DNA from: a virus
DNA length: 55,718 bases
Virus record (IMG/VR): IMGVR_UViG_3300009495_000018
Span: 1 to 55,718 of that record
Strand: one strand, 5' to 3'
Shown: positions 40,488-55,718 of the stretch, in pieces
Layout: every line of letters starts with the position of its first letter
How positions within the stretch are numbered: position 1 is the stretch's first letter
Translations under genes and position numbers: made by a program
The notes under the pieces: model-generated
What the model saw: only the letters and a program-made list of their open reading frames with translations
Told to the model about the DNA's origin: nothing
Databases searched by the model: none

Positions 40488-40940
40488 ATGTCCGAGAAAA
40501 TAATTTGTAGTGGAGCTCTGATTTGTTCCCTTAAAACTAAACGTGTATTACTATTACAACGAACTCATGTTAAACAGCCTGAGCACTGGGGACTAGTAGG
40601 CGGCAAAAATGAATATGGCGAAACTCCTTGGGAAGGTCTACAACGAGAGATAACCGAAGAATTAGGCAAACTTCCTTCTTTTGCTAAAGTTATCCCATTA
40701 GAGCTATTTGTATCAAATGATGAAAAGTTTAATTTTCATACATATCTATGTTTTGTAAATGACGAATTTATTCCGTTGTTAAATGACGAACACTCAGGTT
40801 ACTGTTGGGTTACATTTGGAAATTGGCCAAAACCCTTACATCAGGGGTTGCGAAATACATTAAACAATGCTACAATAAAGACTAAAGTCATGACGGCAGT
40901 TGACGTTTTGCAATACATAGAGGATCACAATGATACTTAA
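40488..40940 (+). CDS. NUDIX hydrolase
   Basis: A 150-residue protein. The Nudix box GX5EX7REUXEEXGU is present as G39...E45...REITEELG (53-60), except that the residue after the last Gly is Lys61 rather than hydrophobic. The fold starts with GALICSLKTKRVLLLQRTHVKQPEHWGLVGGK. Substrates of this family are nucleoside diphosphate derivatives; the exact one cannot be read. It is the first gene after gp15 and overlaps the oxygenase-like gene by 11 bases, so it belongs to the radical SAM gene set by position. Confidence 0.88.
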   Translation: MSEKIICSGALICSLKTKRVLLLQRTHVKQPEHWGLVGGKNEYGETPWEGLQREITEELGKLPSFAKVIPLELFVSNDEKFNFHTYLCFVNDEFIPLLNDEHSGYCWVTFGNWPKPLHQGLRNTLNNATIKTKVMTAVDVLQYIEDHNDT

Positions 40941-41460
40941 TGAACTTTGGCCTACTACACTTGCACAGTTTACGTGGGATGATCAAATTGCGTTAGGCAA
41001 TGTAGTTAACGATATTATCATGAAGTTTCCTGATGGTATAAGTGATCACGAGCGTCCTGATATTGACGAGTATTCAGAATTAAAATTAGCACACGAGTTT
41101 ATTGACAATTCTATTAAATCTTATTTAGAATCAGACTTTCCAAAACAGAAATCATTTTCTTTTAGCTGGTGGGTACATGTTTATAGACAAGGTGCAACAC
41201 ATCATATACACAACCACTTAGGAAGTCAGTTTACTGGAATACTTTATCTTGCAACTCCTCCTGTAGGCGGAGAACTAGTATTACACGATCCTAGAGGTAA
41301 TGCTAATAGAGGTTACAACAGTAACTTAAATCATATATTTGAACCTGTTGTATTAAAGCCTCAGGCTGGTGATTTGTTTATATTTCCTAGCTTTGTTTGG
41401 CACAATGTCGAGACTGTAAAAGACATGCGAATTTGCATGCCGTTTGACGTGTGGTGTTGA
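40930..41460 (+). CDS. 2OG-Fe(II) oxygenase-like protein
   Basis: A 176-residue jelly-roll protein of the small 2OG-Fe(II) oxygenase type. Blocks seen are FSWWVHVYRQGATHHIHNHLGSQFTGILYL (a His-rich first ligand region, 91-96), GGELVLHDPRG, and KPQAGDLFIFPSFVWHNVETVKDMRICMPFDV, giving a distal His158 and Arg167, which would bind 2-oxoglutarate. The His-x-Asp pair is not in the classic spacing. It is flanked by the NUDIX and cupin genes with overlaps. Hydroxylation of a peptide or small metabolite is conceivable. Confidence 0.68.
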   Translation: MILNELWPTTLAQFTWDDQIALGNVVNDIIMKFPDGISDHERPDIDEYSELKLAHEFIDNSIKSYLESDFPKQKSFSFSWWVHVYRQGATHHIHNHLGSQFTGILYLATPPVGGELVLHDPRGNANRGYNSNLNHIFEPVVLKPQAGDLFIFPSFVWHNVETVKDMRICMPFDVWC

Positions 41461-41461
41461 T

Positions 41462-41920
41462 ATGATTCCTAAAGTTAAAATGTCAATGTTAGAGTTTTAT
41501 GATATACTCCGCAGTGACTTAGCATATAATAGAGTAATGACTAGCTACATTGACAGTGAAGGCTTACAACATTATATAACCGAAAATGATTATATTTCAT
41601 ATCTCGGAGTAGTAGATAATCTTTTGCTGCGTGATGATATAACAATTAAATTAGAAAAGTATGAACAGATTTGTAATTTTAATAATGGTACTTGTCATGT
41701 GTTCTACGCAAAGCCTAATTCTCCATCATTCGGTATTCACACCGATCCTGTAGACTTAGTATTGCAAGTTACTCATGGAAGTAAAACATTAGAAATAAAC
41801 GGTACAGAGATAACAGCACACAGTGGACATTGCTTGTTTGTGCCTGCAGAAACACCGCACCGTGCTTTAAATAAAGACAATAGCATTATGCTATCTTGGG
41901 GATTAGATGACCGTACATAA
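41462..41920 (+). CDS. JmjC-like cupin protein
   Basis: A 152-residue protein. FGIHTDPVDLVLQVTHGSKTLEI gives His93-x-Asp95, and ITAHSGHCLFVPAETPHRALN gives a distal His133, the facial triad of Fe(II)/2OG cupins such as ribosomal oxygenases. The N-terminal half is unmatched. The ATG at 41462 follows the previous stop; an ATG at 41444 would overlap. Its stop overlaps the first radical SAM gene by 14 bases. Two possible hydroxylases precede three radical SAM genes, suggesting that they act on a common product. Confidence 0.65.
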   Translation: MIPKVKMSMLEFYDILRSDLAYNRVMTSYIDSEGLQHYITENDYISYLGVVDNLLLRDDITIKLEKYEQICNFNNGTCHVFYAKPNSPSFGIHTDPVDLVLQVTHGSKTLEINGTEITAHSGHCLFVPAETPHRALNKDNSIMLSWGLDDRT

Positions 41921-42935
41921 CGCCACACAGTATATGTCTTATATTAAAACAACTGAGACTTGTAATTTAAACTGTTCTCATTGTTTTACTAATGGCATCA
42001 ACGGACGTAAGATTTATTTTGATCCCCGTGCTACAGCAGATTTTTTTAATAGACTGTATGCTAAAATGCCCAATAGCGGAATAGCTTTCGAGTTCCACGG
42101 CGGTGAACCTATGCTTGCACCCGTAGAAGATATGAAACTGTTTCACAAACTGACTTATGATGTTTGGGGTGACAGAGCTTACTACGGCATGACCACTAAC
42201 TTAACATATAAACTTACAGACGAGAAACTTGATCTAATATACGGAATACTACACAAACGTTTAGGTACAAGTTACGATCCGTTTATACGTTGGGCTAATG
42301 CTAAACAGCAAAAACTATGGGAAGATAATGTGCGTCAACTAACAGCAGATGGAGTAGACATCAAGTGTTTTGTTAGTTTAAGTAAAGATATGATACAAGA
42401 AAATCCTGCAGATGTTATCGAATATTTGATCGACTTAGGTATACAAGAAGTTGACTTTGAAAGATTAACTTCAGACGGCAATGCTGTGCGCAATCCTAAG
42501 ATATTTCCTACTAATATAGAAATACAAGATTGGTACTTACAGTTGCACAAGGAAACACAAGCAAGAAATCTTAGAGATAAAATATACAACTCTACAATTG
42601 AAAGTGTATATATGAAGTTTGAGGATGGCATTACTCGTGCAAGTACATTCTGTAGAGACTGTGAACAAAAACTGTTTACTATAAATGCAGACGGTCGCAT
42701 TGCAGGTTGTCCCAATAGTGCGCCAACTGCACACTATGCACACATTTCTGATGACATAGATCATGTATTATTTCATCCAAGTCGAATGTGTAATATTGCA
42801 ACTGAAATGAATAGAAATTCTAAATGTTATGAATGTCCTGTGCAGTTTTACTGCGGTGGCGATTGTTACAAACTTGCATGGGAAGGCGATATATGTCCTG
42901 CTCCTAAAACACTAATGTTGGAGTTAGCGCCGTAA
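41907..42935 (+). CDS. Radical SAM/SPASM protein (canonical)
   Basis: A 342-residue protein with the cluster motif TCNLNCSHC (Cys19, Cys23, Cys26) and a canonical GGEP (65-68) after the second strand. The C-terminal SPASM domain is complete: the first half is CEQKLFTINADGRIAGC, and the second is CX2CX5CX3C (Cys307, 310, 316, 320) followed by Cys330. This pattern matches anSME-like peptide maturases that hold two auxiliary 4Fe-4S clusters. It overlaps the next radical SAM gene at one base (42935) and follows the cupin gene. Confidence 0.9.
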   Translation: MTVHNATQYMSYIKTTETCNLNCSHCFTNGINGRKIYFDPRATADFFNRLYAKMPNSGIAFEFHGGEPMLAPVEDMKLFHKLTYDVWGDRAYYGMTTNLTYKLTDEKLDLIYGILHKRLGTSYDPFIRWANAKQQKLWEDNVRQLTADGVDIKCFVSLSKDMIQENPADVIEYLIDLGIQEVDFERLTSDGNAVRNPKIFPTNIEIQDWYLQLHKETQARNLRDKIYNSTIESVYMKFEDGITRASTFCRDCEQKLFTINADGRIAGCPNSAPTAHYAHISDDIDHVLFHPSRMCNIATEMNRNSKCYECPVQFYCGGDCYKLAWEGDICPAPKTLMLELAP

Positions 42936-43969
42936 TGGATCTTATTATTAAACCCACTGAAGCATGTAACTTCAAATGTACATTTTGTTCTTCGACTAAG
43001 ATCGATCCTAATAATGCAGGACAATTAGATCACGATTATATCTTTAGATTTTTAGATAGATATCCCGACACTAATACAATTATTGTTAACGGTGGTGATC
43101 CACTCATGATGTCTCCAGAATATTATTGGAAAATAATAGAATATCTCGATACACACGATATGCCGGCAACTATTAGCTTTACTAGCAACTTATGGCCGTT
43201 TTACGTTAAACCCGAAAAGTGGATAGATTTATTCAATCACCCACGTATGGGAATCTCGACTAGTTTTCAATACGGTGCTGGTAGACTTAAAGGTGACTTT
43301 TCAATATTTACAGAAGAAGACTTCTGGAAAGTATCAGATAAAATGTTAGAACTTTGTGGTTATCGTCCTGAGTTTATTGCTGTTATTGACGACATGAACG
43401 AGCATACTATTATTAAAACAGTAGAGCTTGCTAAAAAGATGAATGTAGTTTGCAAAGTAAACTATGCAATGGCAAGCGGCGAGCAGGGCTATACATATCG
43501 TCTTAGTAAAATATATAAAGCATACATTGATATTTACAACGCTGGACTAATGGACTGGGAATACAATACACAACAAATGGTTCGTAGGCTACAAAGTGAT
43601 ACAACTACTTGTCCTCAAAACAGACATTGTGACGAAGGCATACGTGCGTTCAATCCAGGCGGCGACTATTATAGTTGCGGTAGTTTAGGTGACGACAAAG
43701 ATTATCCTATCGACTTTGAATATGAAATGTCAGGAGGATTTAGTACACCGTTGCAAGATGCGCCAGAACTAATTTCAATGAAGCAGGCATGCCTAACGTG
43801 TCCTATGTTTAGAATATGTAACGGCTGTCGTAAAACTGTTAGAGATCACAAGCGTGAAGGTCAAGTAGAAGAACATTGTTTTGAAATGAAACAACTTGCT
43901 CCAACTATTTTAAAGTTGAATAATCAAGACCCTGATAGCGTTACTCCTTATGTGAGGGAATATGACTGA
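42935..43969 (+). CDS. Radical SAM/SPASM protein
   Basis: A 344-residue protein with ACNFKCTFC (Cys11, Cys15, Cys18) close to the N-terminus, the GGDP variant of the GGEP motif (IIVNGGDPLM), and a SPASM-type C-terminus: CDEGIRAFNPGGDYYSC, then CLTCPMFRICNGC (CX2CX5CX2C) and a final Cys in EEHCFEMK. It is closely coupled with both neighbours (one- and eight-base overlaps). It has no N-terminal recognition domain. Substrate unknown. Confidence 0.88.
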   Translation: MDLIIKPTEACNFKCTFCSSTKIDPNNAGQLDHDYIFRFLDRYPDTNTIIVNGGDPLMMSPEYYWKIIEYLDTHDMPATISFTSNLWPFYVKPEKWIDLFNHPRMGISTSFQYGAGRLKGDFSIFTEEDFWKVSDKMLELCGYRPEFIAVIDDMNEHTIIKTVELAKKMNVVCKVNYAMASGEQGYTYRLSKIYKAYIDIYNAGLMDWEYNTQQMVRRLQSDTTTCPQNRHCDEGIRAFNPGGDYYSCGSLGDDKDYPIDFEYEMSGGFSTPLQDAPELISMKQACLTCPMFRICNGCRKTVRDHKREGQVEEHCFEMKQLAPTILKLNNQDPDSVTPYVREYD

Positions 43970-44879
43970 ATTTACTGTTAGTATCAATCCTACATATTTT
44001 TGTAACTTTCGCTGCGACTTTTGTTATCTTACTACAGCCCAACTAGGTAATAAAAAGCGTATTACTCCGGAAGATCTAGACAAGCGTCTTAGTGAAGTGT
44101 CTGTACCGATTACACACGTAGATTTATACGGTGGCGAAATAGGTATGCTAGATAAAGAATATTTTTATAGTTTGAAAACTGTTATTAGAAAATATTTTAG
44201 TGGTAGAATTAACATCAATACTAATTTAAGTGCAAGGCCTGATTTCTTTTTAGATGATGATGTGCATATTAGTGTAAGCTATGACTTCGAAGCTCGAGAA
44301 CAAAGTGATAAAGTATTACAGAATATGATGCTTTTTCCTAAGGATATTAGTGTACTAGTTTTAGCAAGTCCTAAGGTATTAGCTACTAATGTAGACTTAA
44401 TGATTAATACATTTAATATGATGCAAAATGTTAAGTGTGTAGAAATAAAACCTTACTCAACTAATCAAGCAAATGCACACCCTGTTACACATAGAGATTT
44501 TGAACAACATGTGCAGCAATGGATAGAATCTCCTGTATTAAAGCAGTTTGATTTTGTTAACGTAGATGATTTAGAAGATGTATTAGAAGGCAATCGTAAT
44601 GCATTTAGTAACGATCATGTATACATTACGCCTGATGCTAAATTCGGTGTGCTTGAATTTGACAAGAACGATAATGAGTTTTTTGAAGAATATAATACGT
44701 TTGACGAATACTTGTTGTGGGCTTCAAAAGAGTCTACAGAAAACGTCAGTGAAATATGTCATAATTGTAAATACTACGGTAAATGCTTAACTGAACATTA
44801 TCGATATGTTAAAGACTTAAACAACGGCTGTAATGGATATAAGGGACTAATAGACTGGTATGCTGAACTGGAAGACTAG
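43962..44879 (+). CDS. Radical SAM protein with short C-terminal Cys motif
   Basis: A 305-residue protein with FCNFRCDFC (Cys14, Cys18, Cys21), the variant HVDLYGGEIGML for GGEP, and a C-terminal four-Cys set CHNCKYYGKC plus Cys290 (Cys266, 269, 275, 290). This end resembles that of the five minus-strand paralogues more than a full SPASM. It overlaps the unknown gene downstream by 20 bases. Confidence 0.85.
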   Translation: MTEFTVSINPTYFCNFRCDFCYLTTAQLGNKKRITPEDLDKRLSEVSVPITHVDLYGGEIGMLDKEYFYSLKTVIRKYFSGRININTNLSARPDFFLDDDVHISVSYDFEAREQSDKVLQNMMLFPKDISVLVLASPKVLATNVDLMINTFNMMQNVKCVEIKPYSTNQANAHPVTHRDFEQHVQQWIESPVLKQFDFVNVDDLEDVLEGNRNAFSNDHVYITPDAKFGVLEFDKNDNEFFEEYNTFDEYLLWASKESTENVSEICHNCKYYGKCLTEHYRYVKDLNNGCNGYKGLIDWYAELED

Positions 44880-45279
44880 ATTACAACTATTTAATAGTAC
44901 TGCAACAGAATTTACTGACGACTTAAACAAAGTCGACATTCGTACAGAAGAAGACAGTGTTATTTGGGCAGTGAAACATTTCTACGAACGTGTAGACGAA
45001 TGGGTGTATCCTGCTAAAAGTTATTTCGTAGCAATCTGTTATGCTTATTGGATAAGTTTAGATTTTAAATACGATTTCTACGAGCTACTAGATGATAAAG
45101 ATTTATTAGCCGGCAATGATCCGTACTTTAAACCCTATAGCGAAGATAAAGAAACTTACAATGCTATTCTCGACCATATAAGCCTTCCTGATCCTTCATC
45201 TCAGACGGGAATGGTGCCCGACGTAAGGTCTTATTATGAGGAAGAGATGATGTTTGATCAGTATCCCCTACATAATTAA
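44860..45279 (+). CDS. Unknown protein, last gene of the plus-strand set
   Basis: A 139-residue acidic, aromatic-rich helical protein (SVIWAVKHFYERVDEWVYPAKSYFVAICYAYWISLDFKYDFYELLDD). No family recognised. It overlaps the third radical SAM gene by 20 bases, supporting co-expression, and its last 116 bases overlap the 3' end of the minus-strand radical SAM gene in antisense. It could be a small partner protein of the radical SAM enzymes. Confidence 0.6.
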   Translation: MLNWKTRLQLFNSTATEFTDDLNKVDIRTEEDSVIWAVKHFYERVDEWVYPAKSYFVAICYAYWISLDFKYDFYELLDDKDLLAGNDPYFKPYSEDKETYNAILDHISLPDPSSQTGMVPDVRSYYEEEMMFDQYPLHN

Positions 45280-46372
45280 AGAACTCTTTTATAGGACAAA
45301 TGCCAGGTGGTAAATCCCTAGCACGATTCTTCCAGTCCCATTGCGTATAACAACGGAAGCCGCAACGATCAAAATATTGACAACTTAAACAACCAACTTC
45401 GTCCATGTATGCTTGCATGAGGTTAGTGTTGTCTTTTCTAATATATGCGTGTTGAAAATCATTGCGTGTATAACGATGCCAACGGCAATTTGCAGTTGTG
45501 TTATCCGGAAAAATAGTTAACTTGTTTAAGCTCATACAATGCATTTGATTAACATCATTTTCTATAAGTTCTTTATACGGATTTACTTCTGGATAATTAT
45601 CAGCAATGTATTTCATAAACTTTAAGTAAAGCGAATCAGCTGGTACTAAATGGTCGTATCCCGGATCTGGAATAAAATCATCAAAGAACAAATCAAAGTT
45701 TTCATATAGATAATTGAAATAATCATCTCCTGCAAACAATGCATTGATACTGTCTGTTGTTGCTACTAAATTGATAGTAGAAATATAATCTTTAAAACGT
45801 TCGATATTTTTAGTGTATTGTCCGCCTGTAGGACGTCCACTTAGATCATAACTAGCAATCAGTTTACTTGGTATGTCTACTGCATTTAGATCGTCTAGCA
45901 GTTTGCGTACATCTTCGTGATACTTAAACAAAAAGTTACTAACCCAAACTACTTGTATAACGTGTCCGTACCTATCTGTTATTTTTTTAATTTCTACCAT
46001 TAAATCAAAAAACATAGGATACAATGTATCTTTTGCACGGTCTTGAAACAGCTCTCCACCTACCATATTAAACTGCATAGCATGTACTTTGCCCTGCATC
46101 TTTTTACAGTGTGCTTCTACCAGAGGAAGTTTCATTAGCATTTCTTCATATGTCATGCCTACTTCGCTTTCTTTATCATGGAAGCAAAAGTCGCAATTAA
46201 TAGGACAGTTTTCAAAAAGTGTTATTTCAATTTCGCCAATAAGAGGACGCTTACGCTCTAATATTGCGTGTGTTACTGCATTTGCTTCTTGCTGTGCCTT
46301 TGTGTCCAACAAGTGATCATCAGTAATGTTATCCGGCATTAATGCTTTTAGTATTTCTGTTCCGCAGCTCAT
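45164..46372 (-). CDS. Radical SAM/SPASM protein, last gene of the minus-strand set
   Basis: A 402-residue protein with ENCPINCDFCFHD (Cys56, Cys60, Cys63), FNMVGGELFQD for GGEP, and a SPASM-like C-terminus: CMSLNKLTIFPDNTTANC, CLSCQYFDRCGFRC (CX2CX5CX3C) and a final Cys in PPGICPIKEF. It lacks the GPTD motif and has a 45-residue N-terminal extension. It overlaps the next radical SAM gene by four bases. It converges on the plus-strand gene with a 116-base overlap, so its last 38 residues are coded opposite that gene. Confidence 0.88.
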   Translation of the reverse strand: MSCGTEILKALMPDNITDDHLLDTKAQQEANAVTHAILERKRPLIGEIEITLFENCPINCDFCFHDKESEVGMTYEEMLMKLPLVEAHCKKMQGKVHAMQFNMVGGELFQDRAKDTLYPMFFDLMVEIKKITDRYGHVIQVVWVSNFLFKYHEDVRKLLDDLNAVDIPSKLIASYDLSGRPTGGQYTKNIERFKDYISTINLVATTDSINALFAGDDYFNYLYENFDLFFDDFIPDPGYDHLVPADSLYLKFMKYIADNYPEVNPYKELIENDVNQMHCMSLNKLTIFPDNTTANCRWHRYTRNDFQHAYIRKDNTNLMQAYMDEVGCLSCQYFDRCGFRCYTQWDWKNRARDLPPGICPIKEFFNYVGDTDQTSSLPHNKTLRRAPFPSEMKDQEGLYGRE

Positions 46373-47496
46373 TTATTATATCCTATATTGTCGTATAATG
46401 CCATTATGTTTTTATTTATTAGACACTGGTTATGCTTAACTACATCTGTGATTAGCGTTGGTATTAATCTAGAGCTACAATTTTCTACATACTTACATCC
46501 GTTGCATACTAAGTTAGGAATGTTAGCATATTGTGTTAATTGCAATTCGTGCCTTTTATCAAAAATACTGTTTAATATATTTTCGCCTATCGGTACTTCG
46601 AAACTAGGATGATATATAGGAGAATTTTCATATAAAAACGGAACTATATATAACTGGTCATTATTAACTGTAACAATTACTTCATTAAAGTTTTTATGAC
46701 TAGTATCGCTCTGTTGCCATATAAAGTTTTGTGTAAAACGCTTTTCATCTATGCTAGCAACCTTTCCTATACTTTCATTCCATCCTTGTATCATACCTAA
46801 CATTTTATCAGGCCTATTTGTCATGGCACGTACTAAACTAGGCCCCCATTCAACAACAGTATTCCACTTGTTTCTAACAGTTTCAATTTTGTCTAATACA
46901 TCGTCGTCAATGTCTTGAGTTATATTACACAGCAGGCTTACTTCATATTCTACAGAACTATTTTCCATAGCTTCTAGGCGTTCACTTATTAAATCGTGTA
47001 CATGTGGATTATCTAACATATGCAAGTCTACTGCAATTTGTACATCAAACGGACGATCCTTTAGATAGCTATTTTCAATATAAGTAATAATTTCTTTTAC
47101 TCGATCATTTCCTATAAAAAAGTCTATTGAACAGTTATGCTGTAGTCCGCCGTCTTCGGGTAATGCGTTTACTATCTTTTTAAATCTAGGATCTTCTAAG
47201 ACTTGTATTATATTTCCGCTGGAGAAGAAATCAGTAGGTCCTACAATAATATCATCTAATACATATTGATCAGTTAACTCGTCAACAAGTTGTGCAGCAT
47301 AGTCTAGCCCTAATCCCTGTCCAAAGTTTTTTCGTCTTTTAACAAAACAGCCCGAACAGTTGTAAGCACAACCTTCTAATATTTCAAGCATTAACTGAAT
47401 TTTTATCTTGTTTTGATCAGCAGGATCTATAAACCCCTCTGGTGAAAGAGATTGTTTATTATTTTGCAGATAAGTTTGCCAATCATTTTTTAACAT
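46369..47496 (-). CDS. Radical SAM protein of the CFVxRR/GPTD group (fifth paralogue)
   Basis: A 375-residue member of five tandem paralogues. Its cluster motif is GCAYNCSGCFVKRR (Cys43, Cys47, Cys50). At the second-strand position it has IIVGPTDFF (GPTD 86-89) instead of GGEP. A middle block is VPFLYENSPIYHPSFEV. The end has CX2CX5CX17C (Cys331, 334, 340, 358). The group has a short auxiliary Cys motif rather than a full SPASM. It overlaps the preceding paralogue by seven bases. The substrate is suggested by operon context to be the proteins at 53704-54461. Confidence 0.88.
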   Translation of the reverse strand: MLKNDWQTYLQNNKQSLSPEGFIDPADQNKIKIQLMLEILEGCAYNCSGCFVKRRKNFGQGLGLDYAAQLVDELTDQYVLDDIIVGPTDFFSSGNIIQVLEDPRFKKIVNALPEDGGLQHNCSIDFFIGNDRVKEIITYIENSYLKDRPFDVQIAVDLHMLDNPHVHDLISERLEAMENSSVEYEVSLLCNITQDIDDDVLDKIETVRNKWNTVVEWGPSLVRAMTNRPDKMLGMIQGWNESIGKVASIDEKRFTQNFIWQQSDTSHKNFNEVIVTVNNDQLYIVPFLYENSPIYHPSFEVPIGENILNSIFDKRHELQLTQYANIPNLVCNGCKYVENCSSRLIPTLITDVVKHNQCLINKNIMALYDNIGYNK

Positions 47497-48584
47497 GTTA
47501 ACGGCCTATATTCATTTAATACTTCTCTAGGATACACACACTCCGTAAAGTCAAAATGCTCCATATAACTTAATACGTGTTTTTTCAAACATATTTCACG
47601 ACGATTGCATGTTTCACAATGCAGCGTTTTAGGGGAATACGCAAGCTGATCTATATACAAGTCTGTTTTTAAGCTAGTCCAACTTTTAATATCTGTTGGA
47701 TCTTTTACTCTAAACTTTTCGTCACGTATAAGTGCAACTTCATAAACAAACGGAGTTGAATAAAATTCTCCTGCACTATATGTATAATTTAATTCAAGTG
47801 CGCCACCTTGATTTTTGTCAGCTATTGTCATGGCTAGGTATTCTTGATTTTCTTTAGTGAACGTGTCTTCTATTATATCAACCCACGCCCTAATAATATC
47901 GTTGTGTATTTTTCCTTTACCATAACGCTGATAACTAGGAATAGGCTCTACAATAGTGTCGTACTCTTCTTTTATTACACGACATATTTCTGCTAGATTT
48001 CCAAACTCAGCAAAGTCTTGATCCATATTAAAAATTATAGTAAAGTTTAAGGGATCAGTAAATCTATTTAAAACATCATGTATACGTGCTAAGTGATTCT
48101 TTCTATATTCTGGATCAAGTGCTCGTTTAACATCAATAACTACTTGAAAGTCATATAAGAAACCTTCACATTTAGGTATAGCGTTGAAGCCATCTATTAT
48201 AGGATTGATATGAGTATCATCGTTAAGCAGTGTACTAATCATTCCGACAGTGGTGCAGTTACTTACTACTTCTTTAAAACTATCAAATTTTAAAACGTCC
48301 TGTATATTTAAATTACCAAAGACATCAGTAGGACCAAGTATTATGCTGCTAAATCGAATGTTATTTTGATTAAACATTTTTTGTGCAGCTAGTACTTTGG
48401 AAAACTGATCATTAGATGCTTGCTGTCTTCTGCGATTAACAAAGCATCCTTCACAAGCATGTATGCACCCGTCAAGGACGTCAACTGTCATGTTTACTTT
48501 TATATCATGTGCATCACCTACACTGATATTATAGTCTTTATGACCCATTGTTGCTTCCCAATAATTATCCTTTACGATTGACAT
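47490..48584 (-). CDS. Radical SAM protein of the CFVxRR/GPTD group (fourth paralogue)
   Basis: A 364-residue paralogue. Cluster motif GCIHACEGCFVNRRR (Cys40, Cys44, Cys47); IILGPTDVFGNLN (GPTD 84-87) in place of GGEP; block YSTPFVYEVALIRDEKFRV; C-terminal CETCNRREIC plus Cys349 (Cys323, 326, 332, 349). An additional final Cys364 ends the protein. It overlaps the third paralogue by 20 bases. Divergence among the five is strong outside these motifs, so they may act on different residues. Confidence 0.88.
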   Translation of the reverse strand: MSIVKDNYWEATMGHKDYNISVGDAHDIKVNMTVDVLDGCIHACEGCFVNRRRQQASNDQFSKVLAAQKMFNQNNIRFSSIILGPTDVFGNLNIQDVLKFDSFKEVVSNCTTVGMISTLLNDDTHINPIIDGFNAIPKCEGFLYDFQVVIDVKRALDPEYRKNHLARIHDVLNRFTDPLNFTIIFNMDQDFAEFGNLAEICRVIKEEYDTIVEPIPSYQRYGKGKIHNDIIRAWVDIIEDTFTKENQEYLAMTIADKNQGGALELNYTYSAGEFYSTPFVYEVALIRDEKFRVKDPTDIKSWTSLKTDLYIDQLAYSPKTLHCETCNRREICLKKHVLSYMEHFDFTECVYPREVLNEYRPLTC

Positions 48585-49746
48585 GATACACCTTTTTTAT
48601 TTCATCTAATCTTTCATCGCCGTCTTTAGTTATTAAGAATTTTTTACGATATCCTTGCTTATCACCCTCAACAGTATATCCTGTCCAGTCATACATTTCA
48701 GCAGCACTTTTATTATAGTTATGTATATTTTTTAACATATTTTGCTTAGGCGCTATACACTCTTTAGTACCCAAGTAGTCACGTAATAAAATAATTTTTC
48801 TATTGTAGCAACTAAAAAATAAATCACAGTTTTCGCACACTGTTCCTTTAGCTCGATCTACTTGTGACACAGTAAGATCATATGCTTCGTCTAGATTGTT
48901 TACTGCAAACATATTATCATACAATGCCATATTTTCATAAAGGAACGGACTTAGATACCACTGTCCTCCTTTAAAATTTAATACGGTATAATTATGCCCA
49001 GCATGTGTGTGATCTACCATAATATTATTTAAATGAGTATCTTCTGGTAATGCTTCAAAAAATTCATTGAATTGATTTAGTGTAGGTAGTATGATACTTG
49101 CTTTATGACTGCGACTTACACTTGGAATAAAGTCAATTGTTGTATCAAATTGCTTCACTACAAAATCATGTATTTGCTCGTAGTCTAGGTCATAGTTTCT
49201 AATATTAACAATAAACGTATATGTACATTCATGTTTTAAATGCTGGTCGACATATGCAATACAGCGTTTTAATTGCTGTATATAAAGTATATCTTTATAT
49301 CGCATAGGATCAGTTGCTATGCCAATTTCTATTTCAGTGTCAGTATTCACATTGTCATGTAAAAACGTAATCCAACGATCTAAATGTGTTAGATCCTTTT
49401 CTAAAAATGTAGTAGTAAAAGCAAGTATAGGAGAGTTTTCATTTATCATTGCTAACAAATCAGTATTGCTCATTACTTCATAAAAGTTTTCACTAGATAA
49501 ACAGTCAGTTGGGCCTATGAGTATTTCGTCAACTAAAACACCTACATCTGTAATTCGTTTTACAAAGTTTCGGCAATCTTTTAAATGATCAACTTCAGGT
49601 GCATTTCCTCTACGATGTACAAAACACCCAGGGCAAGCGTGTACACACCCGTCTAACACATCAAGCTGTATTTTTACTGCACTTACTGGCTTAGTTTGCG
49701 TTTCTGTAGTAAGCTCATAATACAAGTTATTTTTAATGACCGGCAT
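48565..49746 (-). CDS. Radical SAM protein of the CFVxRR/GPTD group (third paralogue)
   Basis: A 393-residue paralogue. Cluster motif GCVHACPGCFVHRRG (Cys34, Cys38, Cys41); ILIGPTDCLSSEN (GPTD 78-81); block YLSPFLYENMALYDNMFAV; C-terminal CENCDLFFSC plus Cys330 (Cys304, 307, 313, 330). It has a charged C-terminal extension of about 60 residues after the Cys motif, not seen in its neighbours, which may serve protein contacts. It overlaps the second paralogue by 14 bases. Confidence 0.88.
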   Translation of the reverse strand: MPVIKNNLYYELTTETQTKPVSAVKIQLDVLDGCVHACPGCFVHRRGNAPEVDHLKDCRNFVKRITDVGVLVDEILIGPTDCLSSENFYEVMSNTDLLAMINENSPILAFTTTFLEKDLTHLDRWITFLHDNVNTDTEIEIGIATDPMRYKDILYIQQLKRCIAYVDQHLKHECTYTFIVNIRNYDLDYEQIHDFVVKQFDTTIDFIPSVSRSHKASIILPTLNQFNEFFEALPEDTHLNNIMVDHTHAGHNYTVLNFKGGQWYLSPFLYENMALYDNMFAVNNLDEAYDLTVSQVDRAKGTVCENCDLFFSCYNRKIILLRDYLGTKECIAPKQNMLKNIHNYNKSAAEMYDWTGYTVEGDKQGYRKKFLITKDGDERLDEIKKVYHVNRKG

Positions 49747-50761
49747 TTGTATACTCCTTTACTGTAACACACTCTGTTAAATTTCTCGACTTCATATAGA
49801 ACAATACATTGCGCTCTGCACAGCTCATTAAGTATTCGCAACTTTCACATTCTTTAGTAGATGCTGCATATGATAAATTTTCAGCTAAAAAGTTTTTAGT
49901 ATTAAGATTGTCTACTTTAAATTCTTGTGTACGCTGCAATATTCCGTCAAACACAAATGGATTCATATACAAGCTGCCGTTGTAAAAACTATAATTGGTA
50001 CATCCGTGACTATTAAAGTTTGCATCAAACATCGTGTATAACTGTTTGTATTCGGGTCTTATATCTTGTTTACGTAGCTCGTCTAAAAACATCGGAAGTA
50101 ATTTACTAACTTTACCTCGACTATTTCTGTCTGTTAAGAAACCTGGCAATATAACTACTGGAGCATTGAAGTCTTCTTTAATCATATCACATAAATCATT
50201 ATAGCTCACACGATCAAATATACCCGGGTAATAGTTTACTCTAAACTGTACACTACCTTGTTTAAAAAGTTCTAGTTTGCGACACATGTCTTCAATATCG
50301 CCTTGTAAATATCTAGTAATATCAAGTACTATTTTAAAATCTATATCAGGCGTACGATCCAATCCTTCGTAAAGACTCCAAATCTTAGTGTGTTTGGCAA
50401 GTACAGTGTCGTAGTCCTGTAGTAGTGTTGAGTTAAAACTTAGTGCTGCAATACTGTATAAACGTTTCATACTAGGATGGTCCATTAAGTCCCAAAAGTT
50501 TTCTGCATCAAATATATCAGTAGGACCTATTACAACATCATCAGGTGTATATGCACTAGATTCCAATATATCGCATAGTGTTGTAAGATGATCAGCATTA
50601 GTAAGATTTTTTCTAGGAATGAAACACCCTGGACACTTTTGACTGCATCCATGTAATATATCAGCATGAACTTCTGTCCTAAGAAAGTTATTATCCTTAG
50701 GGCTTATGCCTTCTATATAATTGTTAAATCCTGTAGGAGTTGAGTTTAGGTTAACGAGCAT
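49733..50761 (-). CDS. Radical SAM protein of the CFVxRR/GPTD group (second paralogue)
   Basis: A 342-residue paralogue. Cluster motif GCSQKCPGCFIPRK (Cys39, Cys43, Cys46); VVIGPTDIFDAEN (GPTD 79-82); block YMNPFVFDGILQRTQEFKV; C-terminal CESCEYLMSC plus Cys331 (Cys305, 308, 314, 331). The shortest of the five. It overlaps the first paralogue by 11 bases. The methionine start lies inside the end of the upstream gene, so translation is probably coupled. Confidence 0.88.
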   Translation of the reverse strand: MLVNLNSTPTGFNNYIEGISPKDNNFLRTEVHADILHGCSQKCPGCFIPRKNLTNADHLTTLCDILESSAYTPDDVVIGPTDIFDAENFWDLMDHPSMKRLYSIAALSFNSTLLQDYDTVLAKHTKIWSLYEGLDRTPDIDFKIVLDITRYLQGDIEDMCRKLELFKQGSVQFRVNYYPGIFDRVSYNDLCDMIKEDFNAPVVILPGFLTDRNSRGKVSKLLPMFLDELRKQDIRPEYKQLYTMFDANFNSHGCTNYSFYNGSLYMNPFVFDGILQRTQEFKVDNLNTKNFLAENLSYAASTKECESCEYLMSCAERNVLFYMKSRNLTECVTVKEYTNAGH

Positions 50762-51932
50762 TGACGATTTTTAAAGCATCGTCGTTCCACTGTTCGTTAC
50801 TAGTAACAAACGGATTATACAGTTCTAATACTTCTAGCGGCATTAAACATTCGTGCATGTTCATTGCATCTTGTGCTTGGAATATTAGTCTGTTTGCACA
50901 TGCTACTGCATATTTGCAATCTGCACAATCCTTAACTTTAGACGACTTAGCTAACCCTTGTGCTATTAAGTGATCCCTCTTGACTAGAATTTCTTCAAAA
51001 CTTAGTCCTGTTACTTCTAAATCCCTATGCTGTGTAAAGAATGCTTGTTCGTGTAACATTACATTTAAAAATACACGTGGCGTCTCTAATCCAGGAACAA
51101 CAGTTAACCCTATGAAGTTCATGGAGTTACAATATAAGTTAGCCATACTCATTGTAACGTCTTTAAAATTGTCTTGATCTACTACTTCTTTTAGGAAGTT
51201 ATTCCATGCTACTAAGTTCTTACGCTGGTGCAATACACTCGGTGCTCTAGAGAACGCTGGGTTCATTTCTAGAATAGTTTCATATTCATCAAGAATCTTA
51301 TATAGCAGTTTATTATAGTTTTCTTTAGTTAGATGTTTTTGCATAACATTACTTGCTTGTAATGTCCAACTCCAGTCAATTTTCTTGGGAGTTTCGGATT
51401 TAAAGAATTCTAATTTTGATTTAATATCTTTAAAGTATTCTTCGTCATTTAGTATACGATCAACATCGCCAACTGGCATAATAAACTCAATGATCATTTC
51501 GTCTCTATACTTAGAAGGATCATCAAGTATTGCAAATACTTCTCGCAACCTTTCCATGCTCACGCCGTCTATCTTACTAGGTGTAGCAATACGTGCATTA
51601 GTGTGTTCGCGCATTATATCTTGTATAATAGTATTATTAAGAATGCTATCAGTATTTGACGCAGAGAATAAATCTGTCGGACCTACAACAAACTCACGTA
51701 AGTTTAAACCTGTACGCTTTACACCATCTGCAAGTTCTTTTGCAGTTGTTAGCATTTGATTCATTGTAGTAACGTCTTGATTCTTGTTAACAAAACATCC
51801 TAAACAACCATATTCGCAGCCAGTAAGGCCTTCAAAGTTAATTAATACGTCAAACTTCTGGGCGTGTGAAGGAGGTAGACTTTCTGGCCCACTATACTTC
51901 ATCTGTTTACAATATGATTGTTGCATTGTCAT
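50751..51932 (-). CDS. Radical SAM protein of the CFVxRR/GPTD group (first paralogue)
   Basis: A 393-residue paralogue. Cluster motif GCEYGCLGCFVNKN (Cys39, Cys43, Cys46); FVVGPTDLFSASN (GPTD 84-87); C-terminal CADCKYAVAC plus Cys362 (Cys336, 339, 345, 362). The PF.YE block is changed (FLNVMLHEQAFFTQHRDLEV). It is the most divergent of the five and the first transcribed, starting at the stop of the unknown 235-residue gene. Confidence 0.87.
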   Translation of the reverse strand: MTMQQSYCKQMKYSGPESLPPSHAQKFDVLINFEGLTGCEYGCLGCFVNKNQDVTTMNQMLTTAKELADGVKRTGLNLREFVVGPTDLFSASNTDSILNNTIIQDIMREHTNARIATPSKIDGVSMERLREVFAILDDPSKYRDEMIIEFIMPVGDVDRILNDEEYFKDIKSKLEFFKSETPKKIDWSWTLQASNVMQKHLTKENYNKLLYKILDEYETILEMNPAFSRAPSVLHQRKNLVAWNNFLKEVVDQDNFKDVTMSMANLYCNSMNFIGLTVVPGLETPRVFLNVMLHEQAFFTQHRDLEVTGLSFEEILVKRDHLIAQGLAKSSKVKDCADCKYAVACANRLIFQAQDAMNMHECLMPLEVLELYNPFVTSNEQWNDDALKIVNAR

Positions 51933-52639
51933 TATGCTGATTCCTCGTCAAATAATTCTAACATACTAGTTGCAACACCATATTTTAGTAATGTATTATA
52001 TAGGTCTGCTCCTTGATACTTACTAACATCATTAAACACTCTAACATTTAATTTATTAGTAGGCCACGGACCAAATTTATTACCTAACAAATACAACAAG
52101 TCCAACGAGTATGTTGCAATATATACAATATTTAGTCCAATTTGAGTTTCTTCATCTGCACGTTCAATCTCTTCTGGTATAAATTCTTTGTACTTGTCGG
52201 CATATTTGCCAGCTTGATCTAAACAAAACAGTGTAACATGTTTTAGTTTATCTAACAAGTCGTCAAATAATTCGCCATTCTTTTCTAAATATGAATCAAT
52301 GTCAGCATCAGACATTATAGTATTTAATGCTTGGTCAACTTGATTATATTCCTGTCCTAGTTTACGTTTAGCAATTAACGTAATGTATCTAGAAAGTAAC
52401 GGACAATCAACCATAAAATTAGAAATTATATATTCATTTATTAATTCATCGTCAATGCCTTCAAACTGTACTTTAAAGTTAGTGTTAGCAATATATACGA
52501 GTATATGTTTTACTGACAGTACTTCCTTACTTTTAAAATAATCAACCTTGAGAACGTAATCTTCCGAGCTTGTTTTTATTTTATATATTTCTGCTAAATC
52601 TGTTGGACTTAGTGGCAGTGTGTAATTTTCTTGTGTCAT
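51932..52639 (-). CDS. Unknown protein in the radical SAM operon
   Basis: A 235-residue acidic, helical protein (YTLPLSPTDLAEIYKIKTSSEDYVLKVDYFKSKEVLSVKHILVYI...). No Cys motif, signal peptide or membrane helix is visible; Phe/Tyr/Leu-rich helices suggest a compact soluble fold. It lies two bases after the 353-residue gene and touches the first radical SAM gene. It could be a scaffold or leader-binding protein, but nothing in the sequence shows this. Confidence 0.65.
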   Translation of the reverse strand: MTQENYTLPLSPTDLAEIYKIKTSSEDYVLKVDYFKSKEVLSVKHILVYIANTNFKVQFEGIDDELINEYIISNFMVDCPLLSRYITLIAKRKLGQEYNQVDQALNTIMSDADIDSYLEKNGELFDDLLDKLKHVTLFCLDQAGKYADKYKEFIPEEIERADEETQIGLNIVYIATYSLDLLYLLGNKFGPWPTNKLNVRVFNDVSKYQGADLYNTLLKYGVATSMLELFDEESA

Positions 52640-52641
52640 TT

Positions 52642-53703
52642 TTACTCCGGTACAAGTGGTAATATTTTAAACAGCAAATAAGGAATACGACTTTTACGTT
52701 TATAGAAAAACTCTACCTCGCTCCATGCACTTCTTAGTGCTTCGTTATTTGCAAAATTAAATCCGCCCTCTGCAATTTGTATGACAATTGGAATAGTTCT
52801 AGCAAACTCTTTATATACTTCTTCGTATTCCCATTCGTCATGCCCGTCAATTAATGTCATTAATTCTTTATTAGAACCTACATCGTTCCAAAAGTCACGT
52901 AATCTGTATAGTGCTTGCATGCGATTCGTATTTTGAAATACATCTTTCACAAACTCAGCTCTATTCCATTCTGTATTTCCGTTATTATTAAACCAATCAA
53001 TAATATTGTTAATAACACTTACATAACCAATTTTAGATTGTAACATACTAATAACTTCATGAATCATTTTATCACTATGTACTGTAAACTTTTCTCTTAA
53101 AAATGCAGTTGTTGTTACATTAATTTCTGCATAGGTTTCATTTTCATTGTACTTGTCATTAATAAAGAAAAGAATATCGTAACCCCAGTGCTTACTGGTT
53201 GCATTAGGAATATCATAGAATACGTTTTCTGCAAATACTTCCTCTACTGCTGCATTGATATCGCCTTCATTGTAATCGCCCATTGTCGAGTATGTTACAT
53301 CTCTAGTAGTTGCTAATACAATAAATTCCTTAACAACTTGTTTAACATCTTTGTTAGTTGTTGTTTTTAATAGCGAAGCTGTATACTTTGCATACATCTT
53401 CAAAAACTCATGCGCTGATTCAAATAATAAAAATTCCTTAGTATTGTTATTGAGATATTCCCAAGAATCAATATCGCTATAATTAGCAAATGTTATCATA
53501 TCTTCAGCGTTTGCTAATGGATAATCATTACTTAACGACGATGCATAACTTTCTTGCACTGCACTATGTCCATCTGGCATTATTATGCTAATACGTCTTG
53601 ATTGAACTCCGCTCCACGGACTTTCTGATAATGCCGAAAGCATTGCAGTAGATCGTCCTAAGTATTTTTTATTACTGATATAGTAAAAACTTTCGCCTAT
53701 CAT
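52642..53703 (-). CDS. Unknown protein next to the putative precursors
   Basis: A 353-residue protein beginning MIGESFYYISNKKYLGRSTAMLSALSESPWSG. Its first 55 residues are Ser/Tyr-rich; the rest is helical with Trp/Asp-rich blocks (WEYLNNNTKEFLLFESAHEFLKMYAKY). No known domain is recognised. It starts directly at the stop of the second Cys-tail protein (no gap), whose last codons contain GGGAGAAG as a Shine-Dalgarno sequence. Tight coupling suggests a role with those proteins. Confidence 0.65.
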   Translation of the reverse strand: MIGESFYYISNKKYLGRSTAMLSALSESPWSGVQSRRISIIMPDGHSAVQESYASSLSNDYPLANAEDMITFANYSDIDSWEYLNNNTKEFLLFESAHEFLKMYAKYTASLLKTTTNKDVKQVVKEFIVLATTRDVTYSTMGDYNEGDINAAVEEVFAENVFYDIPNATSKHWGYDILFFINDKYNENETYAEINVTTTAFLREKFTVHSDKMIHEVISMLQSKIGYVSVINNIIDWFNNNGNTEWNRAEFVKDVFQNTNRMQALYRLRDFWNDVGSNKELMTLIDGHDEWEYEEVYKEFARTIPIVIQIAEGGFNFANNEALRSAWSEVEFFYKRKSRIPYLLFKILPLVPE

Positions 53704-54087
53704 TTATCTTCTCCCTCTGCTGCCGTGGCAGCTATAATGGCAACTTGAATGGCATATTCTAAAGTCGAAATACGAATTTGTAATTCTTCCTTCTATGCCA
53801 TTTACTGTTCTGCTGATTGCATTTGAAGCAAATGTTTGTATATCACCTGCTCTTATTAATAAATTGTCACCTACACCATTTGGAATATCTGTATTAGCAA
53901 AGGCACCTTGCCCGGCATTTACGTATTCATAACGTCTATTACCATATGCAGTTCCTTGGCCACTACCATTATATCGCGCATAATATACTGTAGCTGCTAC
54001 GTTAATAGTTTTATCAAATGTGCGTATTCTTGTATATGCATTACCATAGTACCGAGCTTCTAATTGTGCATGACTTAATCCTGCCAT
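53704..54087 (-). CDS. Cys/His-tail protein 2, putative radical SAM substrate
   Basis: A 127-residue protein. The body is beta-like and Gly/Tyr/Asn-rich (RIRTFDKTINVAATVYYARYNGSGQGTAYGNRRYEYVNAGQ), then a helix (LLIRAGDIQTFASNAISRTVNGIEGRI). The last 16 residues are CHSSCHYSCHGSRGRR with Cys112, Cys116 and Cys120, i.e. three CHxS units and a basic tail. These are its only cysteines. It is homologous to the protein encoded just upstream, sharing FDKTIN, GTAYGNRRYEYVNA and the tail. It could be a RiPP-like precursor or a metal-binding virion tip protein. Its start shares one base with the previous stop (TAATG). Confidence 0.8.
   Translation of the reverse strand: MAGLSHAQLEARYYGNAYTRIRTFDKTINVAATVYYARYNGSGQGTAYGNRRYEYVNAGQGAFANTDIPNGVGDNLLIRAGDIQTFASNAISRTVNGIEGRITNSYFDFRICHSSCHYSCHGSRGRR
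53915..53955 (-). repeat. 41-bp identical repeat shared by the two Cys/His-tail genes (copy 1)
   Basis: This 41-base stretch is identical to 54286-54326 and encodes GTAYGNRRYEYVNA in both genes. The identity at DNA level indicates recent duplication or gene conversion, or strong constraint, within otherwise diverged sequences. Confidence 0.85.
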
Positions 54088-54461
54088 TATCTTCTCCCTC
54101 TTGATCCGTGGCAGCTATAATGACAACTTGCGTGACATATTCTCCAATCAAAGTAACTATTGCTAATACGACCTTCAATTAAATCGCAAGTTCGTTGTAT
54201 TGCATCAAGTGCTTGATCAATTAATTGGGTTGCATCTACTTGTGTAGTATTTGGATAAACATTTCCGTTGTAATCACTGTTAGGTGCATTTACGTATTCA
54301 TAACGTCTATTACCATATGCAGTTCCAGCACGGCCACCGTCCACGTTTCCTGTAACATACACTGTAGCAGCAAAGTTAATAGTTTTGTCAAATCCTCGTA
54401 ACTGAGCCCCGGCATTTCCGGTAAAGTAATCTCTTGCCGAGGCTCTTGTCATGTTTCCCAT
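54087..54461 (-). CDS. Cys/His-tail protein 1, putative radical SAM substrate
   Basis: A 124-residue protein homologous to the next gene. Body: QLRGFDKTINFAATVYVTGNVDGGRAGTAYGNRRYEYVNAP, then helix TQLIDQALDAIQRTCDLIEGRI. The tail CHASCHYSCHGSRGRR has Cys109, Cys113 and Cys117. One extra Cys lies at about 91 (RTCDLIEG). Conservation of the body together with the tail suggests a folded structural module rather than a free leader peptide. It lies three bases after the fibre gene stop and before two unknown genes and six radical SAM genes on the same strand. Confidence 0.8.
   Translation of the reverse strand: MGNMTRASARDYFTGNAGAQLRGFDKTINFAATVYVTGNVDGGRAGTAYGNRRYEYVNAPNSDYNGNVYPNTTQVDATQLIDQALDAIQRTCDLIEGRISNSYFDWRICHASCHYSCHGSRGRR
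54286..54326 (-). repeat. 41-bp identical repeat shared by the two Cys/His-tail genes (copy 2)
   Basis: Identical to 53915-53955; encodes the same GTAYGNRRYEYVNA segment. Confidence 0.85.
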
Positions 54462-54464
54462 AAA

Positions 54465-55718
54465 TTATACCTTCACTTCAACTACATCTGTACCATCTTC
54501 TAATGCAGTACCAATTAATAAAGTGTATTCTGCTATAGTACTTAGTTCGTCTACAGCACGACCTTTACCGTCTTGATCTGCAATGATATACTGGCCTTTC
54601 TTAGCTGAACCATTAATCATAACTGGTACACGACCTTTAAGTGCAACGAACGGCCACATCGGATCATCTCTGTTATCGTCTGTTTGGTTCATCATCAAGC
54701 CCGGCTGTGTTGAAACAACGCCTGCTAGTTTCATGCCTGGTTTGAACAATGTAACTTCAGCATCGCCACCAATAGCAAGTACAGTACCGTGTGCGTAAAC
54801 TTCGTCAGCTAAGTATTTCTCTGCCAAGTCAGCCCAGTTAGCACTTGCAGCAGTACCTTGGTAAACACCACTGTTATCAACGTATGAAACATCTGTTCCA
54901 TCACGTCTAAACTGTACAACACGATCGGAGTTAGCACCTGATGCAATGTAGAATCTGTTAGCGTGATATTCAATCTTACCAACGTCATTACCTGGGTTGC
55001 CTGTCCAGCTTTCGTTACCGTTTTCGTAGAATCTCCAACCAGGTGAAACACCGTCGTTGTTGTAGCTACGTAGTGCCCAGTTGCCATCTTCGTTTAGGAA
55101 GCCTTGTGATGCATCATCTGCATATAATCTACCATAGATAGTGTTTGCACTGTTAGCAAGAGAAACTTCACAACTTCCGCTGTTAGCTGAACGCATGTGG
55201 ATTCTGTTAGTTGCTTGTGGATAAATGTGCCATCCAGCATAGTTGCCACCTTCCCAGTAAATACCTGAATTGCTTTCAATGCGTACCCAGTTATCAACAT
55301 ATAGCTCGCCTGCAATGTTTGCACCATTGGAACGTGTTTGAACTTTCCAACTACCATTATGCATCATTTCAGTTTGTGCGTTGTGTACACCGTAGAACAA
55401 CCATTCGTTATCTACATCGTTGAAGATACCAGTTGCAGTGCCACCGTCATGCATGAATACTGCACGACCGTCAATGCTAAAGCCTTCCCAGTTACCAAAT
55501 CCACTACCGCTAATCTGAATCGAACCGTAGTTACCTGTTGGTTCTCTTAGGTAACGTGTAGTTTGATTACCTACTGAGATGAACTGCTTAACTGTTAAAC
55601 GACCATCTGTTGTAAGTGCCATAGCACCATCAGCAACACCATCACTTTCATGACGCCATTTAAAGCCACGATCACTATCGTTATTCATTGTGAATGTCAT
55701 AGCATAGTCGTTTAGCCA
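54465..55718 (-). CDS. Tail fibre protein, C-terminal part (5' end outside window)
   Basis: The frame is open from the right edge: the codons before the Met at 55700 read WLNDYA, so the gene starts outside and at least 417 residues are visible. The sequence (DYAMTFTMNNDSDRGFKWRHES..GAMALTTDGRLTV) resembles marine T4-like fibre proteins. The C-terminal 130 residues, ADLAEKYLADEVYAHGTVLAIGGDAEVTLFKPGMKLAGVVST and ALKGRVPVMINGSAKKGQYIIAD, look like the terminal domain common to such fibres and related to peptidase G2-type autoprocessing domains; cleavage is not shown. It is followed three bases later by the Cys/His-tail gene. Confidence 0.85.
   Translation of the reverse strand, partial: WLNDYAMTFTMNNDSDRGFKWRHESDGVADGAMALTTDGRLTVKQFISVGNQTTRYLREPTGNYGSIQISGSGFGNWEGFSIDGRAVFMHDGGTATGIFNDVDNEWLFYGVHNAQTEMMHNGSWKVQTRSNGANIAGELYVDNWVRIESNSGIYWEGGNYAGWHIYPQATNRIHMRSANSGSCEVSLANSANTIYGRLYADDASQGFLNEDGNWALRSYNNDGVSPGWRFYENGNESWTGNPGNDVGKIEYHANRFYIASGANSDRVVQFRRDGTDVSYVDNSGVYQGTAASANWADLAEKYLADEVYAHGTVLAIGGDAEVTLFKPGMKLAGVVSTQPGLMMNQTDDNRDDPMWPFVALKGRVPVMINGSAKKGQYIIADQDGKGRAVDELSTIAEYTLLIGTALEDGTDVVEVKV

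Follow-up and report, generated by a model that had tools for sequence, protein, structure and literature searches.

Why would a virus carry nine radical S-adenosylmethionine (SAM) genes among the genes for its tail, and on what would the enzymes act? The question is raised by the viral record IMGVR_UViG_3300009495_000018, whose positions 1 to 55,718 (55,718 nucleotides, the whole stretch of DNA analysed) we call the window. A first-pass annotation made from the sequence alone described nine genes with a CxxxCxxC motif in two convergent, overlapping sets, together with two homologous proteins ending in a Cys/His tail beside a tail fibre gene, and proposed that the enzymes modify these tails. 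The open reading frames (ORFs) are present as described: nine, of 305-402 amino acids (aa), have an N-terminal CxxxCxxC motif, three on the plus strand (41907-44879) and six on the minus strand (45164-51932), with short overlaps. The two tail proteins, CHxS protein a (124 aa; 54087..54461, minus strand) and CHxS protein b (127 aa; 53704..54087, minus strand), are paralogues with 55% identity, with a gene of the PHROG tail fibre category upstream. Both end in CHxSCHYSCHGSRGRR, protein a with CHASCHYSCHGSRGRR (tag codons 54090-54137) and protein b with CHSSCHYSCHGSRGRR (tag codons 53707-53754).

Our data document that the CHxS tail and the radical SAM enzymes are one conserved system. We consider it reasonably likely that this is a phage-encoded maturation system for a virion protein, similar to those that make ribosomally synthesized and post-translationally modified peptides (RiPPs), with the CHxS protein as the candidate substrate.

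Linkage between the tag and the radical SAM genes

We refer to the radical SAM families of the window as A, B, C, D (five paralogues) and E. A degenerate DNA pattern that fixed the Cys-His spacing and two later Arg-type codons, and nothing else, matched at least 119 stretches of viral contigs, and in at least 101 of these (83 groups when overlapping loci are merged) the frame runs for exactly 16 residues from the start of the tag to its stop. The first-pass annotation had expected tails and enzymes to co-occur, and tails occurring widely without radical SAM genes were not seen: among the matches listed, genes of families A to E lie in the DNA around 98 of the 101 viral tail loci, and for the other three radical SAM A was found elsewhere on the same contig. 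Matching stretches in which the motif does not end a protein, 18 of the 119 viral (among the matches listed) and 31 of the 44 genome stretches, served as controls; no radical SAM gene accompanied any of the 18 or the 31, nor did they have a common end, and chance recurrence of the motif is thereby ruled out. The tail itself was present in 13 of the 44 genome stretches, 11 of them with a radical SAM gene; of the two that have no such gene, L142 looks like a chance repeat and the other, L160, is taken up below.

The linkage also holds in the other direction. Searching with an alignment of radical SAM A and taking the best 80 of 361 viral stretches (80 loci, 39 groups), we found the tail in 55 loci: 45 in the stretches themselves, nine more when the contigs of the other 35 were searched in full, and a variant, CHYSCFTSSCHFSRGRR, in L257. 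For all of the remaining 25 loci the ORF maps, read against related clusters, show a cluster ended by the end of the contig. Tail, A, B, C and E occur together in 49 loci, or 41 once overlapping loci are merged; this count misses several, for instance FLC6 and Phosso, since the ORF finder drops overlapping ORFs. When overlaps are merged by shared 150-mers, all 172 tail loci form 103 groups.

The tag lies exactly at the stop codon, and its statistics, taken from 150 unique tail proteins, point to constraint well beyond the search pattern. The final residue is Arg in 150/150, although the search left that position free, and Ser4 (140/150), Gly14 (139), Ser12 (137) and Ser8 (120, with Asn in another 26) are near-fixed; a weak demand for Ser4 and Ser8 was part of the genome scan, and not of the viral scan. 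Cys occurs at every fourth residue in all 150 tails, a spacing that was itself part of the search, and the number of repeats is three in the tails found, with a single protein that has four. The 141 DNA sequences encode 70 different tags, and both Cys codons and both His codons are used at each place. Because the synonymous codons vary, the conservation lies in the protein. The C-terminus of CHxS protein a matches PHROG 35144, a family of unknown function; beyond it, no family in the Pfam, NCBIfam and PHROG scans made describes the tag.

The N-terminal parts of the CHxS proteins are much more variable than the tag and fall into 12 BLAST groups (one later comparison left out four of the 69 long-type proteins). 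A structure prediction for the protein of L127 (65 sequences; mean predicted local distance difference test score, pLDDT, 86.8) gives a folded domain whose last strand, at residues 167-175, leads into a low-confidence tail. The model matches predicted structures of two proteins, one of 178 aa and one from Atu_ph07 that, at 296 aa, is as long as gp170 of that phage, so that the predicted fold is retained among members unrelated by BLAST. An earlier view of the N-terminal parts as a dozen unrelated domains was softened, since these matches run across BLAST groups. Among solved structures nothing resembles the fold of the CHxS protein, and the model of the window's own CHxS protein is poor (mean pLDDT 67.8), so we draw no inference from it. 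We also noted the same predicted fold in three larger proteins (504-660 aa) of one phage, Myoviridae sp. ctijX18 (BFVD A0A8S5USJ7, A0A8S5USJ8 and A0A8S5USV2).

The tail had been likened to His-Xaa-Ser systems, in which, according to the part of the source used here, H-x-S repeats near the C-terminus of a protein are paired with radical SAM enzymes (PMC9062424, citing Haft and Basu). That comparison stands insofar as H-x-S-type repeats lie at the C-terminus and tail and radical SAM enzymes form one conserved system, but membership in Hxs fell away: radical SAM A scored 33.5 bits on HxsB against a cut-off of 370 and B 22.8 bits on HxsC against 267.9, and the HxsA repeat-protein models gave no match at E 0.1 to either window tail or to any of eight others. 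The NCBIfam scan covered eight of the nine radical SAM proteins, all except that at 49733-50761. In contrast to His-Xaa-Ser proteins, the repeat here is four residues long and contains Cys, comes in a fixed three copies followed by the end tag SRGRR, and is accompanied by four or more radical SAM enzymes plus oxygenases. CXXX-repeat proteins share the Cys at every fourth residue, but the CHxS tag also fixes His and Ser and ends the protein, and A reached 29.9 bits on the CXXX maturase model TIGR04115, for which the cut-off is 350.

The best curated models for A are PapB, anaerobic sulfatase maturase (anSME), DarE, DynA, DarW and HxsB, mostly peptide or protein maturases and every one far below its cut-off; anSME is also among the best solved relatives. 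The ranthipeptide maturase PapB and anSME (TIGR03942) lead with 42.9 and 42.1 bits and have the SPASM domain in common with A, but their cut-offs are 340 and 349.45, and unlike in those systems there is no sulfatase here and there are several radical SAM enzymes per substrate. The Cys-rich RiPP FibroRumin (TIGR04135) gave a weak match to the C-terminus of the L127 tail (13.7 bits, E 0.048), but the cut-off of 45 was not reached and only one of ten tails scanned matched at all. Nine radical SAM genes in one phage segment had been called exceptional; the number holds, with one correction: the Campylobacter phages CP220 and CPt10, in the portion of their description drawn on here, carry 11 and 12 radical SAM proteins, five in one cluster next to a putative glycine amidinotransferase (PMC2853527). 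Those phages likewise have radical SAM genes in clusters, but the seven records that A or B matched in tblastn include none from a Campylobacter phage. Literature searches found no such system described, a result of little weight given their partial coverage (few subscription journals, no bioRxiv). We file the system as a new form of radical SAM peptide maturation, outside Hxs and CXXX.

The CHxS protein as probable substrate and its likely place in the virion

Two general features of RiPP pathways are present, a precursor gene linked to modifying enzymes and a conserved core segment of 16 residues, and we think it very likely that the CHxS tail is the substrate of the radical SAM enzymes. The cluster in the window is flanked by tail genes on both sides, and the virus's tail region lies within the window, with genes for tail tube, tail sheath, head-tail adaptor, baseplate wedge/fibre connector and tail sheath stabiliser. 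(The tail sheath ORF at 26120-29461 encodes 1113 aa, long in comparison with the profile of the common sheath family, of 496 positions, that it also matches.) Directly upstream of the CHxS genes lies the C-terminal part of the tail fibre gene (54465..55718, minus strand), which runs off the window; in L001 the counterpart of this fragment forms part of a longer open frame, of 3331 aa or more. Of the 107 loci with 3.5 kb of DNA upstream of the tail gene, 71 have a relative of the fibre there. The link to fibres that the first-pass annotation had drawn thus gains ground from gene order, and the CHxS proteins probably belong to the neighbouring tail-fibre structure.

Indirect help comes from the published virion proteomics of phage Atu_ph07. 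The sections of that report available here describe 131 virion proteins identified by mass spectrometry, most of them encoded in three clusters, one of which comprises coding sequences 170-215 (PMC6102473). The CHxS protein of this phage is gp170, the first coding sequence of that cluster; we checked the numbering against gp198, the portal, and gp215, the major head protein. Because a cluster delimited by detected proteins would be expected to start with a detected one, gp170 was probably detected in particles, which suggests that it is part of the Atu_ph07 virion. We regard a location of the CHxS protein in the virion as likely.

Several observations weigh against this interpretation. The placing of gp170 is indirect, taken from a cluster boundary rather than from the protein list. 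No fibre relative lies upstream in 36 of the 107 loci, including those of phages DT01 and SURPRISE13. Locus L160 has the tail on a 5.4 kb contig, and radical SAM A is absent from its metagenome-assembled genome. Radical SAM B, C, D and E lack the full SPASM pattern or vary in it, and they could have another target. Finally, a scan of ten proteins that flank or neighbour the clusters of Bdellovibrionota recognised no tail gene. Because these bacteria keep the system without such genes, the virion cannot be its only setting.

The same observations can be read in other ways. The last 16 residues might be processed and released as a genuine RiPP that acts as a small effector on the host, on competing phages or on prey, with the N-terminal domain as a large leader. 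A short, uniform core next to its enzymes is the usual RiPP layout, and the N-terminal parts vary far more than the tag. However, the predicted folding of the N-terminal domain, kept in members that BLAST does not relate, goes beyond what a leader needs, the genes adjoin fibres, and the scans recognised neither a peptidase nor an exporter gene in the proteins that they covered; we consider such a cleaved product unlikely. Even less probable, in our judgement, is an unmodified tip in which Cys and His hold Fe or Zn while the radical SAM enzymes target something else. Metal-binding tips are known from PAAR and fibre-tip domains, and the tail offers three Cys and three His at fixed spacing, with three repeats in all but one protein, but PAAR was unmatched in our Pfam scans and the two-way linkage to four radical SAM genes would be left unexplained.

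A further reading takes the enzymes to act on a small molecule, a cofactor or a nucleotide, with the CHxS protein as a merely linked neighbour. Weak matches point to an NrdG-like character for the D proteins and a QueE-like one for C, and metabolic boosting has been proposed for the radical SAM genes of CP220 and CPt10 in the extract of that report considered here (PMC2853527). Both the two-way linkage and the exact conservation of the C-terminus across phages and Bdellovibrionota argue against it, as do the curated models nearest to A, mostly of peptide or protein maturases, and we find this the least credible of the alternatives.

Returning to maturation of a virion protein, what we propose for the chemistry and biological role of the tag is conjecture. 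The folded N-terminal domain would anchor the CHxS protein in the tail or fibre, probably in association with the fibre or baseplate, and the exposed core that ends it, the 16 residues CHxSCHxSCHxSRGRR, would be the target. Radical SAM A, with its SPASM domain, and B, C and E, joined by zero to about five D enzymes, could act on this core, most likely crosslinking or oxidising its Cys, His and Ser residues. The sulfatase motif is C-x-P-S-R, and C-H-x-S-R has the same spacing; conversion of the third Cys to formylglycine is thus a candidate chemistry, with thioether or C-C crosslinks as the alternatives. The JmjC-like cupin and the 2-oxoglutarate (2OG) oxygenase of the cluster would probably hydroxylate His, Arg or neighbouring residues, while p235, and perhaps p139 and p372/p353, may present the substrate to the enzymes. 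The finished tip would then be displayed and could serve host contact or penetration.

In its broadest form, our proposal is a widespread class of phages that bear a C-terminal peptide, crosslinked by radical chemistry and hydroxylated, on a virion protein associated with the tail fibre, a particle-attached RiPP acting as a tip for host contact or penetration, with Bdellovibrionota using the same device on their own surface; we offer this tentatively, as a possibility rather than the expected outcome. Secreted peptides and some enzymes are known to be matured by radical SAM chemistry. If our reading is correct, four or more radical SAM enzymes devoted to one virus-linked tagged protein would be a new use in virus structure, a block of unannotated jumbo-phage genes would gain a function, and phages and predatory bacteria would be linked by one molecular device. 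The tag offers enzymology a defined substrate of 16 residues, and the proposal is directly testable, as at least five isolated phages carry the system.

Enzymes and companion genes

On the plus strand from 40488 the order of genes is Nudix, 2OG oxygenase, cupin, radical SAM A, B, C and p139; convergent to these, the minus strand holds the tail fibre, the two CHxS proteins, p353, p235, the five D paralogues and radical SAM E. Radical SAM A (CNLNCSHC; 41907..42935, plus strand) has a SPASM domain (28.7 bits, cut-off 27), and among 159 relatives scored the full SPASM cysteine pattern is present in all and CxxxCxxC in 156. The Pfam Radical_SAM cut-off of 29.5 bits is passed by only two of the nine proteins, B (CNFKCTFC; 42935..43969, plus strand) with 34.1 bits and C (CNFRCDFC; 43962..44879, plus strand) with 32.6 bits. 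C also matches PHROG 1802, as does E (CPINCDFC; 45164..46372, minus strand; E 2.7e-24).

The D paralogues, all on the minus strand, were assigned by motif, by homology to each other and by homology to genes of phage DT01 that its depositors annotated as radical SAM. They are copy 1 (CEYGCLGC; 50751..51932), copy 2 (CSQKCPGC; 49733..50761), copy 3 (CVHACPGC; 48565..49746), which has relatives in FLC6, FLC8, SURPRISE13 and DT01, copy 4 (CIHACEGC; 47490..48584) and copy 5 (CAYNCSGC; 46369..47496). Near the C-terminus a CX2CX5C motif is found in 98/98 relatives of B, 84/85 of C and 171/176 of D, and an auxiliary-cluster motif, CX2CX5CX3C, in 115/116 relatives of E. The usual set is A, B, C and E with the cupin and p235, the copy number of D being variable: among the 49 complete loci, D is absent from 34 and reaches its maximum of five in the window, and extra copies of A occur in three. 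A radical SAM protein of another kind, about 570 aa long and B12-binding-like (below the Pfam B12 cut-off), is encoded at L134:3321-5030 and L265:1572-3311; its family occurs in 23 of the 172 tail loci.

The oxygenase and cupin, which had been suggested as sources of further modification, both recur with the system. Among the 172 tail loci, many of them short, relatives were found of p235 in 146, the cupin in 96, p372 in 94, D in 58, the oxygenase in 53 and p139 in 52. The 2OG-Fe(II) oxygenase (PF13759; 40930..41460, plus strand) scores 65 bits against a cut-off of 27. The JmjC-like cupin (41444..41920, plus strand) barely passes the JmjC_2 cut-off (23.3 bits against 22), and its HxD...H triad is kept in six homologues. 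Known members of the JmjC_2 family hydroxylate His or Arg, and the likeness would suit a tag rich in both. The Nudix protein (40488..40940, plus strand; 60.9 bits), with relatives in only 12 loci, is probably a neighbour outside the system.

Of the small partner proteins, p235 (51932..52639, minus strand) has relatives in 159 of 268 loci and is elsewhere often directly behind the tail gene: for 158 tails with enough downstream DNA, it starts within 60 bases in 80 and farther away in 61, and was not found in 17. It has no relative among solved structures. The conserved p139 (44860..45279, plus strand) occurs in 78 of the 268 loci, including five isolates and Bdellovibrionota; in Atu_ph07 its relative is encoded on the opposite strand at a distance of about 5 kb, and among solved structures it gave only two chance-level matches. 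In the window, the convergent genes of p139 and radical SAM E share 116 bases at their 3' ends (45164-45279). Relatives of p353 (52642..53703, minus strand), which has no Pfam match, are found in 41 loci of the two-tail subtype; p353 and p372 align weakly, over 48 columns with a probability of 22.

A gene at L257:7084-9012, beside a 2OG oxygenase, encodes glycosyltransferase 25 and PLOD glycosyltransferase domains, an arrangement that suggests hydroxylation plus glycosylation of virion proteins. ORFs of 641-646 aa stand at the same position in L204, L206, L235, L241, L245 and L255, matched to it by size and place only.

Phages and bacteria that carry the system

Cupin, radical SAM A and the CHxS gene are contiguous in five jumbo phages, SURPRISE13, FLC6, DT01, Atu_ph07 and Phosso, and FLC8 was matched by tblastn. 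Radical SAM B is 56-60% identical to its counterparts in jumbo phages. For SURPRISE13, the part of the published account used here lists a cupin, three radical SAM proteins and two oxygenases among accessory or unknown-function proteins (PMC11898562).

Among 191 Bdellovibrionota genomes searched, six have the tag, with radical SAM relatives adjoining in each, and L166, titled Bdellovibrionaceae, is a seventh. The contigs look chromosomal because the flanking proteins include acyl-CoA dehydrogenase, peroxidase and AMP-binding enzymes; prophages are also conceivable. In a tree of 42 radical SAM A proteins with unknown root, a single change accounts for the Bdellovibrionota rows (support 91); the viral contigs L018 and L070 lie among them, and the window lies among the viral rows.

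Near two of the Bdellovibrionota clusters we observed proteins with a Peptidase_S74 chaperone domain (L264:17655-18692 and L266:9628-10920). That of L266 also has a prepilin methylation motif and that of L264 appears prepilin-like by eye, and it is possible that both are surface fibres. Peptidase_S74 proteins as a constant neighbour of the system were ruled out, with three ORFs only. On a 151 kb viral record, IMGVR_UViG_3300025138_000014, lie two CHxS clusters (L101 and L120) that are separate and differ in type, each with its own radical SAM A.

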